This document shows positions 2,198 to 28,363 of a stretch of DNA of 35,555 bases, in pieces. Position 1 is the stretch's first letter; the number at the start of each line of letters is the position of its first letter. Location of the stretch: assembly GCA_022545545.1 (NCBI GenBank), contig JACZQV010000008.1, positions 1-35,555 of the forward strand, read 5' to 3'. The DNA is from Pseudomonadota bacterium (GTDB lineage Bacteria > Pseudomonadota > Alphaproteobacteria > SMXQ01). The notes below the pieces were generated by a model. The model was not told where the DNA came from, ran no database searches, and saw nothing but the letters and a program-made list of their open reading frames with translations. The position numbers were made by a program, and so were the translations under genes.

Positions 2198-2465
2198 AGT
2201 ACTTACTTTCATAGGAGGGTGATACATCTGACGGCCTTGCAGGCTCTTCGGCTAGGAGCGTGGTCCGCCGTGATGCTGGCGCATCACAAGGGCCGCGCGA
2301 CGAGAGCGTAAGGGCCTGCAAGGCCGCCCGAAGGGTCGCTTTTCGCGGCCACCGGAGGGCGTATGCGCCGCTTGACGATGTCCAGACATCGCCGGCGCGA
2401 CGCCTCCACCCCGGAGGCCGCGAAAAGACGATCATATGTCGCACCCTTCTATGAAAGTAAGTACT
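2198..2465. mobile_element. MITE-like inverted-repeat element, copy 1 (268 bp)
   Basis: Both ends carry AGTACTTACTTTCATAG followed by RAGGGTG and a looser match to about 34 bp, in inverted orientation (2198-2231 and 2432-2465). Inside are further perfect inverted repeats: a 13-bp arm at 2232-2244 and 2314-2326, GTGATGC/GCATCAC at 2270-2287, a 12-bp arm at 2339-2350 and 2416-2427, and CGATGT/ACATCG at 2376-2391. The whole element could fold into nested hairpins. A second copy at 5384-5653 is similar over its full length. It has no transposase frame, and the one continuous frame inside looks like no protein. No clear target duplication is visible. It lies between the divergent sugar dehydrogenase and gnnA. 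A structured non-coding RNA is the alternative reading. Confidence 0.85.
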
Positions 2466-2508: not shown

Positions 2509-3483
2509 ATGAAAAGAATCCGCACGGCGGTCGTCGGTGTCGGCCATTTCGGCCGGTTCCACGCCGAGAAATATGCCGGCCTCGCGGCGGCGGAGTTGGT
2601 CGCGGTGGTCGATACAGACCGGGCCCGCGCCGAGCTCGTGGCCAAGGAATTGGGTGTCCGGCCGGTGTTCGAATATCGTGAGATTCTCGGCCGGGTCGAC
2701 GCCGTCAGCATCGTCGTCCCCACCGCCCTTCATTACGAGGTGGCCAAGGCGTTTCTCGAGCACGGCCAGCATGTGCTGGTCGAGAAGCCGATCACCGACG
2801 ATCTCGCCCAGGCGGACGAACTCATCGGGCTTGCCAGGGAGAACGGGTTGACGCTTCAGGTCGGGCACGTCGAGAGGTTTTCCGCGGTGCGCCTCGGTAT
2901 CGAGGGGATCGTCGAGGACCCCGTGTTCATCGAATGCAACCGGCTGGCGCCGTTTCCGGCGCGGGGCGCGGACATCGACGTCATATTGGATCTGATGATC
3001 CACGACATCGATATCATTCTCGATCTCGTCGGCGCCCCGGTGGTCGAGGTCCATGCGGTAGGTGTCCCCGTGCTGACCGACCAAGTGGATATCGCCAACG
3101 CCCGGGTTCGTTTCGCCAACGGCTGCATCGCCAACATAACCGCGAGCCGCGTCAGCATGAAGGACGAACGCAAGATGAGGATTTTCCAGCGCCACGCCTA
3201 TCTTTCCGTCGATTTTCTCAACAACTCGGTGGTGATCGCCGGCGTCCCCGACGCCGAGACCTTCGCCGGCCCCGGCTCGGTCAAGGTCGACGAGCGCCGT
3301 TTCGAGGAGGGCGACAAGCTTGCCCGCGAGATCGAGGCGTTCGTCGGTGCGGTGACCGATGGATCCCCCCCGCTGGTTAGCGGCGAGGACAGCCGCCGGG
3401 CGCTCGAGGCGGCGTTGATGATCAGGAGTTGCCTTGAATCTTCCCCGAGGCCCGCCGACGAAGCGGCCTCGCGCCTGGCCTGA
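2509..3483 (+). CDS. gnnA: Gfo/Idh/MocA-family NAD(P)-dependent sugar-nucleotide oxidoreductase, probable GnnA
   Basis: 324-residue oxidoreductase with an amino-terminal Rossmann fold (VVGVGHFGRFH, residues 8-18), the family EKP motif (92-94) and the HDID segment (165-168) usual near the active site. In GnnA the reaction is oxidation of the 3-hydroxyl of UDP-GlcNAc, giving the 3-keto sugar that GnnB aminates; the product lets lipid A carry an amide-linked acyl chain. Assignment to GnnA is inference from the next gene, a DegT-type aminotransferase 12 bases downstream. WlbA/WbpB-type UDP-GlcNAc-uronate dehydrogenases are the main alternative. No lpx gene is in the window to settle it. AGGAGAGG lies upstream of the ATG. 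Transcription may start near or inside the inverted-repeat element that ends 43 bases upstream. Confidence 0.72.
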   Translation: MKRIRTAVVGVGHFGRFHAEKYAGLAAAELVAVVDTDRARAELVAKELGVRPVFEYREILGRVDAVSIVVPTALHYEVAKAFLEHGQHVLVEKPITDDLAQADELIGLARENGLTLQVGHVERFSAVRLGIEGIVEDPVFIECNRLAPFPARGADIDVILDLMIHDIDIILDLVGAPVVEVHAVGVPVLTDQVDIANARVRFANGCIANITASRVSMKDERKMRIFQRHAYLSVDFLNNSVVIAGVPDAETFAGPGSVKVDERRFEEGDKLAREIEAFVGAVTDGSPPLVSGEDSRRALEAALMIRSCLESSPRPADEAASRLA

Positions 3484-4626: not shown

Positions 4627-4690
4627 GGCATGATCCGGCCGGAGAGTGCTCGTCAGCCTTATCCGATCGGCTTAACCCTTCCCGCCGGTG

Positions 4691-4820
4691 CGGCCGACCC
4701 TGGCTCCGCCGGAGGCTTCGCCGAGGCGAGTGCCGCTCTCGCCACGCTTCGCTGGCGTAGCGGGTCGCCTGCCCTCCGTACGACTTCGGGAGGCGGGGCG
4801 TGGCGACGGCCCGCTCCGCC
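4691..4820 (+). repeat. Dispersed GC-rich intergenic repeat, copy A
   Basis: This block shares long matches with the reverse complement of 6271-6370: the GACCCTGG-CCGCCGGAGGCT segment, GCCGAGGCGAG, and TGCCCTCCGTAC followed by TTCGGGAGGCGG. Copy A has about 30 extra bases around 4738-4768. The CCTCC/GGAGG pair forms a small hairpin in each copy. It lies between the gnnB stop and the stop of the convergent small gene. Frames through it translate as low-complexity R/A/P sequence. Confidence 0.75.
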
Positions 4821-5383: not shown

Positions 5384-5653
5384 AGTACCTACTTTCATAG
5401 GAGGATGGCACATCTGACGGCCTTGCGGGTTTTTCAGGCCCGGAGCGTGGTCCGCCGTGATGCTAGGCGCATCACAAGGGCCGCGCGAGGAGAGCGTAAG
5501 AGCCTGCAAGGCCGCCCGCAGGGTCGCTTTTCACGGCCGCCGGAGGGCGTATGCGCCGCTTGACGATGTCCGGAGAACGCCGGCGCGCCGCCTCCACCCC
5601 GGAGGCCGCGAAAAGACGATCATATGTACTATCCTCCTATGAAAGTAAGTACT
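5384..5653. mobile_element. MITE-like inverted-repeat element, copy 2 (270 bp)
   Basis: Same orientation and architecture as the element at 2198-2465. The left tip is AGTACCTACTTTCATAG and the right tip, read inward on the other strand, is AGTACTTACTTTCATAG. The interior matches copy 1 closely, including CTGACGGCCTTGC, GTGGTCCGCCGTGATGCT, GGGCGTATGCGCCGCTTGAC and the CGCGAAAAGACGATCATATG right end. The inner 13-bp arm is imperfect here and the CGATGT hairpin is lost. The last two bases of the right tip form part of the TAG stop codon of the gene at 5652-6005. No clear target duplication is visible. Confidence 0.85.
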
Positions 5654-6005: not shown

Positions 6006-6270
6006 ACCTGCTTCCTCCCTCGGGATCCGGCGCCGGCATCCCCACCAGCCCTCTCATACACTCACCGATCCCTTGGACATCATTGCGCCGCCGGAGCGAA
6101 TCCGGCGCGGCGCGAGAGAGGATCTGACTGATTTTGGTCCAAGGTCCACATGCAGATCAGTGCCTGGCGCCATGATAAAGCGCCGGGCGAAGGTTTTCAA
6201 ATGGATCGGAGGGCCCAGGCGGGGCGGTTCCGGAGATGGCCTGGAATCAACGGCCGAGGGTTGGGGAGGG
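6006..6270. other. Intergenic stretch, no gene recognised
   Basis: Together with the repeat at 6271-6370 this fills the 420 bases between two minus-strand genes. The repeat-free part is less GC-rich around 6120-6200. I see no convincing reading frame, RNA gene or strong hairpin in it; it probably carries the promoter of the EF-hand gene. Confidence 0.4.
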
Positions 6271-6370
6271 GCGGGCCTTCGCCACGCCCTGCCCTCCGTA
6301 CAAATTCGGGAGGCGGGCGGAGCGGCTCTCGCCTCGGCGTAGCCTCCGGCGGCGCCAGGGCCGGCCACGC
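6271..6370 (-). repeat. Dispersed GC-rich intergenic repeat, copy B
   Basis: Inverted relative to 4691-4820 and about 30 bases shorter. It includes the TGCCCTCCGTAC and TTCGGGAGGCGG pair (a short hairpin) and GCCTCGGC near 6331-6338. It lies just downstream of the stop of the dioxygenase gene. The two copies flank the hypothetical gene, the second inverted-repeat element and the EF-hand gene. Confidence 0.75.
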
Positions 6371-6425
6371 AGGCGGGCGTGACCCAAGGGCGCGCTCGGC
6401 CCTTGACCTGTTTCACTCCGGGCGT

Positions 6426-7220: not shown

Positions 7221-7350
7221 GGCATGCACTCCCCTTGCCAGGCTGTCGCAGGCTCCGGAAAGTCCAGCAGGCGGCGCCAGATGGCGCCTTTGCTCGATAC
7301 TGCCCGCCAAGCCCCACCCTAGCGCATTATCCGGCCAGAGGGAATCGTTT

Positions 7351-7376
7351 GACCACGGTGAATTTGCGCCGTGGTC
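7351..7376. repeat. Perfect 8-bp inverted repeat
   Basis: GACCACGG (7351-7358) and CCGTGGTC (7369-7376) enclose a 10-base loop. It lies upstream of the dioxygenase gene and touches the first tip repeat of the element remnant. It could be an operator or a transcript hairpin; no T run follows on either strand. Confidence 0.6.
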
Positions 7377-7495
7377 CAGTGCTTACTTTCATAGGCCAGT
7401 ACTTACTTTCATAGGCCAGTACTTACTTTCATAGGAGGGTGCGACATATGATCGTCTTTTCCAGGCTTCCGGGGTGGAAGCGTCGCTGCGCTCCT
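7376..7495. mobile_element. Decayed end of the MITE-like element with triplicated tip
   Basis: Three direct 20-bp units CCAGTRCTTACTTTCATAGG occupy 7376-7395, 7396-7415 and 7416-7435. The last runs on into AGGGTGCGACATATGATCGT and TTCCGGGGTGGAAGCGTCG, which matches the right end of the full elements in reverse orientation for about 75 bases. The opposite end is not found before the neighbouring gene, so this is a solo, truncated end. The units have no spacers, so this is not a CRISPR array. The stretch 7221-7558 holds no gene. Confidence 0.8.
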
Positions 7496-16692: not shown

Positions 16693-16804
16693 AGATATCT
16701 CCTGAGTCCCTTGACTGATTGCTACGACACCTCACGAATGCAACAGACCCGAGAATTTCCGTGAAAAACCAATCCGCTACGGCATTAGGTTCGGCAAACG
16801 TCTG

Positions 16805-17070
16805 TCACGCGACATAAGCATATATGTGCATCCGGGCATTGGATACCCTGAGCGTCTTCAGGCGTTCGTGGGAGGCGAACTCGGATTCCGACACCACGCC
16901 GATACCGAGACCCCGGATCACGGCCTCTCGGGCGGCTTCACGGTCCTTGATCTCCATGACGGGGCGGATCTTGACGCCCGCCTGATCGAGCGCCGACATG
17001 AATGCCTTCGGGTGGTGGAGCCGGCGCCGCGCAACACCAACTCCTGGCCATCGAGTTCCTCGATGGCGGG
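16805..17070 (-). pseudogene. 3' fragment of a duplicated LysR-family regulator gene
   Basis: Nearly identical to 28011-28272 of the intact regulator gene at 27479-28363. It encodes KTFMSALDQAGVKIRPVMEI-like sequence and continues to MHIYAYVA. The amino-terminal two thirds, with the DNA-binding domain, are absent. A one-base deletion before the CATTCATG of the MSALD segment breaks the frame, and the end is replaced by a TGA after the YVA codons. It cannot make a regulator. It lies 112 bases upstream of phnX on the same strand, so a full regulator gene may once have stood here. Confidence 0.93.
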
Positions 17071-21167: not shown

Positions 21168-21200
21168 GGAGGCATCCCCCGATGCCGATGCATTCTTGCC

Positions 21201-21215
21201 ATGAAAGTAAGTACT
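21201..21215. mobile_element. Solo tip of the MITE-like element
   Basis: ATGAAAGTAAGTACT equals the outermost 15 bases of the right end of the elements at 2198-2465 and 5384-5653. No internal element sequence remains on its left. Its last two bases plus the flanking A make the TAG stop of the phnE gene that follows. Confidence 0.75.
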
Positions 21216-27478: not shown

Positions 27479-28363
27479 ATGTATGAAAAGTGGCTTCAGG
27501 CGTTTCACATGGTCGCCAAGGAAGGCGGCTTCACCGCCGCGGCCAGGGTCCTGAATGTGGGTCAACCAACGGTTTCGACCCACGTGCGCTCGCTCGAGAA
27601 TTACTTCGGCGTTGAGCTGTTCCACCGGCGCGGACGCGATGTCGCATTGACCGGCGTTGGACGTTCGTTGCTGATCATCACCGATGGATTGTTCGGTCAC
27701 GAAGAAGAGGCCGTGAAATTCCTTCGCGCGGCCCAGGAACTCCAGGCCGGTGAGCTGAACTTCAGCGCCATCGGCCCGTATGACGTGATGGAGCTGTTGG
27801 AGGTGTTCGGCGCCAGCTATGCCAAGCTGCGGTTCTCCGTGGTTCTGGGAAGCACCGATGAGGTTCTGAAGAGCCTGCTGGAATTCGATAGCGATATCGG
27901 GATTCTCGGACACGAAGAGCGGGACCCGCGCTACTTCTGCAAGTTCTATAACCGGCACGAGGTGCTGGTGATGGTGAATGCGGCACATCCTTTGGCCGAT
28001 CGGCGCGCGATCGCCATCGAGGAACTCGACGGCCAGGAGATGGTGTTGCGCGGTGCTGGCTCCACCACCCGAAAGACCTTCATGTCGGCGCTCGACCAGG
28101 CGGGCGTCAAGATCCGCCCGGTCATGGAGATCAAGGATCGTGAAGCCGCCCGAGAGGCCGTGATCCGGGGTCTCGGTATCGGCGTCGTGTCGGAATCCGA
28201 GTTCGCCTCCCACGAACGCCTGAAGACGCTCAGGGTATCCAATGCCGAGATGCACATCTATGCTTACGTCGCTTGTCTGGCGGAACGCCGGAACCGGCCG
28301 TTAATAGCGGCCTTTTTCGAGACGGTGAACACATTGGTGGGCAAACGCACCGTGAAGCCCTAG
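27479..28363 (+). CDS. LysR-family regulator of phosphonate catabolism
   Basis: 294 residues. The winged helix-turn-helix is at the start (FHMVAKEGGFTAAARVLNVG, then QPTVSTHVRSLENYFGVELF). The effector domain includes YDVMELLEVFGASYAKL and GIGVVSESEFASHERLKTL. It matches the LysR group tied to aminoethylphosphonate-type loci, and it is divergent from the PhnA fusion, the usual arrangement. It probably senses a phosphonate intermediate and controls the island. The last third is duplicated as a broken copy beside phnX. Confidence 0.9.
   Translation: MYEKWLQAFHMVAKEGGFTAAARVLNVGQPTVSTHVRSLENYFGVELFHRRGRDVALTGVGRSLLIITDGLFGHEEEAVKFLRAAQELQAGELNFSAIGPYDVMELLEVFGASYAKLRFSVVLGSTDEVLKSLLEFDSDIGILGHEERDPRYFCKFYNRHEVLVMVNAAHPLADRRAIAIEELDGQEMVLRGAGSTTRKTFMSALDQAGVKIRPVMEIKDREAAREAVIRGLGIGVVSESEFASHERLKTLRVSNAEMHIYAYVACLAERRNRPLIAAFFETVNTLVGKRTVKP

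Follow-up and report, generated by a model that had tools for sequence, protein, structure and literature searches.

The element at positions 2198-2465 of the window (the whole stretch of 35,555 nucleotides analysed here) is MITE-like, and we put at roughly 70% the probability that it belongs to a large, apparently unrecorded superfamily, in which a conserved folded core is combined with exchangeable ends and is moved in trans. As a kind it fits a MITE: it is 268 bp long, has 34-bp terminal inverted repeats (TIRs) and no transposase gene, and its copies are dispersed at new sites. The features found in the window are listed in Table 1.

Table 1. Positions of the element and of related features in the window (family I, the family of the element; family II, another family)
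Feature	Position	Strand	Remarks
Full element, copy 1	2198..2465	+	268 bp; from sequence comparison
Left TIR, tip AGTACTTACTTTCATAG	2198..2231	+	
Hairpin module A, copy 1	2246..2312	+	67 nt; covariance model R1, 70.9 bits (one of the 8 training sequences of R1)
Central mini-hairpin CCCGAAGGG	2327..2335	+	read from sequence
Hairpin module B, copy 1, inverted copy of module A	2350..2416	-	54.6 bits
Right TIR	2432..2465	-	
Full element, copy 2	5384..5653	+	270 bp; 91% identical to copy 1
Module A of copy 2	5433..5500	+	41.2 bits
Module B of copy 2	5538..5604	-	28.6 bits
Probable remnant, family II left end	7321..7375	+	tip with 4/18 mismatches, following sequence similar; precedes family I tips
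Three tandem 20-bp tip units	7376..7435	+	
Family I right-end fragment, inverted relative to copies 1 and 2	7418..7486	+	
Lone tip	21199..21215	-	1 mismatch

Outer inverted repeats of about 34 bp with further inverted repeats inside them, pointed out in the earlier note, were confirmed. The terminal arms of copy 1 are complementary at 88% over 34 nt (84% over 43 nt), and its single-strand folding energy had a z-score of -14.2 as DNA, -13.95 as RNA of the + strand and -11.4 for the - strand; none of 200 shuffles matched this folding, either as DNA or as RNA. The limits of the copy could equally be placed at 2199-2464, and CA/TG would then be decayed TA flanks. The two large internal hairpins, A and B, represent one module of ~67 nt in opposite orientations; by eye, several other families also have the mini-hairpin that separates A from B, or its complement, close to their centre. 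The stated absence of a protein gene was borne out as well: none was seen in the element, and by eye the short frame that follows the left end changes register from copy to copy through 1-nt differences in length. An encoded peptide was rejected, as this frame is not conserved.

The two full copies and the fragments that the earlier note described in the window are real, but they undercount what is a high-copy family genome-wide. A search of the element's own genome, G000 (2.75 Mb, 196 contigs), returned 114 tips at ≤2 mismatches (61 on the + and 53 on the - strand) against 0 for the reversed-pattern control. BLAST of the element in this genome gave 125 HSPs, a count of HSPs and not of copies. 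Copies with both ends numbered 33 in ~353 kb of own-genome DNA, the window included; 13 of them measure 267-271 bp, nine 299-307 bp, three 342-344 bp, two 379 bp and six 45-169 bp. In the examples aligned, the longer copies carry additional sequence in the loop of hairpin B. Several G000 contigs end inside the element (e.g. C37:1, C189:1, C187:1 and C134:1). It therefore seems to break the assembly, and the copy counts are lower bounds. The sister genome G001 (JADFJG01, 'Proteobacteria bacterium B40T1L10') also bears many tips, and DNA searches with the element gave no match in the other nine genomes of the family.

The fragment at 7418-7486 is an inverted match to 2397-2467 (93% over 71 nt, starting at 7416). 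Two additional tandem 20-bp tip units at 7376-7415 precede it, and the composite fragment as a whole spans 7321-7486. Composites in which a family II flank (GCGCCGTGGTCC or a near variant) precedes family I were seen here, at L068:137-473 and in C73, C89, C111 and C181, and possibly spread as a unit. At four loci of G001 (L060, L063, L064 and L066), family I lies in either orientation at the centre of a short palindromic repeat (CCATAG.../CTATG). A GC-rich inverted repeat pair of the window (4681-4797 and 6270-6378) has relatives inside long family I copies (e.g. L068, G001 C54, C97), i.e. nested repeats.

Comparison with G001 gave information on the insertion sites. The site of copy 2 is near-empty in G001, where it reads CTAG and the neighbouring 36 nt are somewhat altered; contig C30 of G000, where the site is CTAG, lacks a 421-bp copy of G001 (L070); and a lone tip on C156 of G000 has a full copy at that place in G001. 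One flank of copy 1 is element-free in G001 and reads CTTAGG. In G001 the two flanks of this copy are found on separate contigs, next to sequence that in G000 flanks other copies (C32 in one case, C134 in the other), which suggests recombination between element copies at this locus.

No target duplication of 2-12 bp was found in 45 family I copies. In G000, the flanks of 109 tips, among them those of tandem and lone tips, had C/T at -2 in 106 cases and T/C at -1 in 97, and a TA becomes visible in them only if about half of the flanking Ts became C. The flanks of a related family in genome G536 are clean: among 17 copies (taken from 30 of 36 tip loci, with one nested pair sharing an end) TA was present at the left flank in 16 and at the right flank in 16, preceded by C in all 17, and the right-hand TA was followed by G in 12 and by A in four. 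In family I, the T/C ratio at -1 was 44/50 after C and 26/5 after T (Fisher p = 3e-4, on 144 flanks that are not all independent, two chance matches excluded), and CTAG occurs at 0.54 of expectation in the DNA sampled. From the clean TA in G536, the bias after C and the depletion of CTAG, we read the family I target as TA at CTAG with T-to-C decay, which might come about through repair of the very-short-patch type.

Folding with a covariance model, as the earlier note had proposed, revealed a conserved structure with strong covariation across families. A model built from eight modules of three families (R1) gave matches, often as +/- pairs, in 30 of 289 class genomes (27 of 224 genera), the own genome being one of them. 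A second model built from all 39 modules (R2) found the module in 21 of 398 genomes of the phylum, namely 15 members of the class, own genome among them, and six others. The threshold was E ≤ 1e-3 per genome, at which less than one false genome is to be expected; several single matches lie close to it. Among 29 example loci, 22 had the module as an inverted pair at E ≤ 1, with starts 100-120 nt apart, and four of the seven single-module loci are within 180 nt of a contig end. By-eye inspection covered the matches outside G053, G616, G516, G599, G647, G529 and G415.

The 39 modules were bounded by model matches and aligned by MAFFT on sequence alone, leaving out three of 38 model matches (L156, partial; the second ones of L157 and L170). 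Double changes were present in 19 of 20 base pairs against a shuffled mean of 13.3, paired cells made up 93.0% against 68.6% after shuffling and ≤46% when slid, and the covariation score was 0.62 against 0.19, with none of 500 shuffles as high; the pairing figures, like the strand-bias figures that follow, are partly ascertained and inflated because the modules were gathered with a pairing model, and modules from one element or from close relatives are not independent. On the sense strand of the module, all 20 pairs together had 70 G-U and 16 A-C, the 13 core pairs chosen by the analyst 28 and 3 (18:1 in + modules and 10:2 in - modules), and two pairs excluded from this core 7:7 and 3:3. The excess of G-U over A-C points to better folding on the sense strand of the module than on the other, which would fit single-stranded DNA or RNA, the latter as in the mobile structured RNA that the earlier note offered as its second option.

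Within family I, stems are more conserved than loops (Mann-Whitney p = 2e-8). G-U is in the majority in seven pairs and A-C in one; any G-U occurs in 24 pairs and any A-C in 16. Five of the six double-change pairs of this family lie in the TIR stem, where arm-to-arm copying could produce them. A rare change at column 14 of one copy (L011, G000 C193:3772-4038) recurs in complementary form at column 259, a sign of such copying.

The module is conserved across families and the outer ~20-25 nt differ. We compared 18 representatives with both ends readable (258-287 bp), which do not amount to 18 independent end types since some of the tips are related (an ATACC group; L157/L158; L149, L155, L164 and family I). 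Their 24-nt tips are 96% alike within an element and 39% between elements (33% when shuffled and aligned), and the modules are 51% alike between representatives (39% when shuffled and aligned). In most examples the layout consists of an inverted module pair with a short centre and TIRs ~47-50 nt outside the module, to a total of ~260-290 bp.

Two double-hairpin families have a ~20-nt CTAG tip matching insertion sequences (IS) of the IS5 and IS1182 families, with TA at the ends. The G536 tip CTAGGGTCTGGACCCATAAA (20 nt with CTAG) matched three plasmid records, all three at the ends of IS5-annotated elements of 844-846 bp; it is exact at one IS5 end in Azospirillum ramasamyi and has 1-4 mismatches of 20 at the remaining IS5 ends, in that species and in Nitrobacter hamburgensis. 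In one of these elements (L272), the first frame scores as IS5 family (NCBIfam transpos_IS5_3). The G193 tip CTAGGAGCCTGTCCGAGAAAT matched four records, one of them (20/21 nt) at the end of an IS1182-annotated element of Methylobacterium radiotolerans, which carries a tip of this type with CTAG at both ends; by annotation the other three are not at IS ends. The E-values of these tip matches are weak (0.4 to 3), and their weight comes from the position exactly at the ends of transposase-bearing elements. The double-hairpin elements differ from these IS in lacking a transposase gene. Beyond the tips they gave no alignment with the IS5/IS1182 sequences (the best local match was the tip alone), and the IS bodies had no model match to the hairpin module. 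Family I matches neither.

The interiors of MITEs are usually regarded as decayed IS remains. The families could be ordinary MITEs, internal-deletion relics of several IS with a functionless palindromic interior, the stems of which stay paired by arm-to-arm copying in replication. The TIRs, the mostly intergenic insertion and the tips matching IS5 and IS1182 ends agree with this explanation, and rare variants that occur together at the two ends of one copy (pairs 6/267 and 14/259) look like arm-to-arm copying. However, families with tips of unrelated transposases have the core in common, a search of the IS concerned did not reveal it, and the module motifs AGG, ACG and GATG/CATC are fixed beside freely varying yet paired stems, unlike the outcome of arm copying alone. 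We regard this explanation as unlikely. With covariation across families and no IS tip match in the loci and plasmids searched, the window element did not turn out to be simply a MITE from some described IS family, devoid of conserved structure, the finding that would have spoken against the earlier note.

The family I tip, which the earlier note could not link to a known IS, stayed unmatched in our searches. We found no partner at the loci of four transposase Pfam families in G000 and G001 or on plasmids, and hence no transposase gene flanked by the tip at those loci, a check that the note had suggested. Inward-facing tip pairs of transposase size were not seen by eye in the match lists of G536, G205, G017 and G089. 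The window element as an IS5-family MITE was rejected: the sole DUF4096-type gene found (in G001; none in G000) has other ends, and there was no plasmid match. An IS5-family element of G001 sits inside a family II copy, at that copy's CTAG.

A DDE_Tnp_1 element of G001 (L135, C120), presumably IS4-like, was rejected as the partner, as its ends start CTAGTGTCCGG yet do not match. It is a complete-looking transposon with these ends and the direct repeat GGGACACCAT outside, and the ends resemble those of the L151 element in G289 (CTAGTGTCCTGG). IS630-type elements of G001 have other ends and the IS1380 element of G000 C45 has no matching ends, and both were set aside. Archaeal and viral 18-20-mer matches (L074, L080 and L081), in which the tip alone matches within unrelated flanks, were judged to be chance, as were the 206 low-score records for the L157 tip, mostly one enterobacterial coding gene among the matches listed (E 1 to 4). 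The L164 tip had one match (87.5%, E 0.1), under an IS110-annotated transposase gene in Vibrio. Whole-element plasmid searches gave no match for L162, L153, L234, L233 and L224; for L219 there was one, in Phyllobacterium sp. 628, covering 54% of the element, in which one module was detected (E 2.6e-5) but not a second. From this related element and from the origin of the IS with matching ends (Azospirillum, Nitrobacter and Methylobacterium), we take the class to be probably Alphaproteobacteria.

In IS200/IS605 elements, a guide motif pairs with the target. TAGG of the module as a guide pairing with target CTAG was rejected, since the motif is constant when the tip changes (the ATACC families keep NNAGG or a near form). 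We also considered a REPIN-like reading, in which a RAYT (Y1) transposase would mobilise each module, as a large REP, in the form of single-stranded DNA. The element is indeed an inverted hairpin dimer, many modules have a 5' (G/C)TAGG motif, and there are Y1 genes, one in G000 and two in G001. Against this, related families show TA duplication and IS5/IS1182-matching tips, the Y1 protein of G000 scores 58.9 bits against a REP-transposase cut-off of 80, and no tip lies near any of the three Y1 loci. According to PMC3733652, REPs and REPINs with RAYTs (GTAG- and CGTC-tagged repeats) are likewise inverted hairpin dimers, high in copy number and intergenic, CGTC-type repeats occur mainly in alphaproteobacteria, and RAYT genes flanked by TIRs are described. 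The same paper gives REPs a length of 20-40 bp; the superfamily has a ~67-nt module with internal loops, elements of 258-287 bp and TIRs of ~24 bp. Membership of a REPIN/RAYT system was rejected on module size, on the TIRs and on the Y1 loci without tips; the reading was already disfavoured, and we consider it very improbable. The Y1 (RAYT-like) protein of G000 (L146:100-1080; 326 aa) has a DnaA-like C-terminal region, and similar frames of 316 and 329 aa occur at two places in G001.

Copy 1 is located between divergent genes, which by Pfam encode a glucose/sorbosone dehydrogenase (880-2040, -) and a GFO/IDH/MocA oxidoreductase (2509-3483, +). Among the 33 G000 copies, 13 were between divergent, 11 between tandem and five between convergent genes, one was inside a gene and three were unclassed, as counted with a crude, codon-based and unreliable gene caller; at copy 1 it passed over the real neighbours in favour of an antisense frame of 690 aa that matches no Pfam family, and called the context tandem. 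Some lone tips run, by eye, into a possible start codon with GGAGG just upstream.

These counts bear on another explanation, that the element is mainly a host structured RNA or a bidirectional terminator-like hairpin (REP/BRE-like), with mobility secondary. It is favoured by the G-U excess of the modules and by G626, outside the class, where single modules without paired TIRs were found (four matches) and where, in all three loci examined of the four, a long neighbouring frame ends 8-18 nt away. The 33 G000 copies had no clear gene-end preference (crude caller), which weakens an mRNA role; further, copies in the two relatives differ by insertion, four G536 copies are ~99% identical to one another, and no element had an Rfam match above the gathering threshold in the window and in sets of 20 and 15 loci. 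We hold this explanation to be quite unlikely. The match in G467 (L238), with no TIR or partner module by eye, may be false.

We therefore return to a MITE-like element with a conserved core and exchangeable ends. The non-autonomous transposon proposed in the earlier note is well supported by the dispersed copies, the TIRs, the empty sites and the related families with TA duplication or IS-matching tips, and mobility in trans is likely, judging from the sequences. A DDE transposase encoded elsewhere would bind the tips and move the element into CTAG/CTAA with TA duplication, and new families may arise when the core gains ends recognised by another transposase. The putative mobiliser of family I would be an IS with ends CTA-GTACTTACTTTC, to be sought in relatives of the genus.

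In a weaker part of this proposal, the module may owe its conservation to a function as a folded single strand. Both modules of an element point inward in the 5' to 3' direction, and a transcript or single strand from either side would thus meet a correctly oriented hairpin first. The role that we prefer is that of a bidirectional REP/terminator-like hairpin on read-through mRNA, which would make intergenic insertion tolerable; alternatively, the hairpin might aid transposition. We tentatively suggest, at somewhat less than even odds, that the folded core has been selected as a single strand (RNA or single-stranded DNA), is older than the ends, and survives across Proteobacteria by taking over, again and again, terminal repeats from unrelated transposons (IS5, IS1182 and others), being moved by whichever transposase is available. 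If the core is conserved while the ends change and match unrelated transposases, some small repeats would be lineages of their own that change vehicles. The result supplies a search model, a target rule (TA at CTAG/CTAA) and candidate transposases in two families.

Among known systems, QMITE1 and QMITE2 of Coxiella resemble the window element in being short, with TIRs, about 50 copies per genome and very stable folds, as far as the available parts of PMC5896051 describe them. Those parts report no relatives of QMITE1 in other genomes, whereas the present superfamily has a covarying core common to many differently ended families across a phylum. The Betaproteobacterial repeat element (BRE) is 75-91 bp, GC-rich and usually intergenic, and overlaps a detected small RNA (PMC3110155); the lone modules of G626 are of similar length, the comparison being one of size and not of sequence. 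We found no description of the element in the literature on bacterial MITEs, CTAG/stem-loop repeats and IS1182, as partially covered by sources that include PMC3733652, PMC5896051, PMC3110155 and PMC10969869.

Two further repeats were observed. An inverted duplication of ~270 bp in the window (16799-17068 and 28012-28282; 93-94% over two parts) looks like a piece of a coding gene, and no module was found in it. In G536, two subfamilies are joined in one 363-bp unit (L247, C18:372306-372674).
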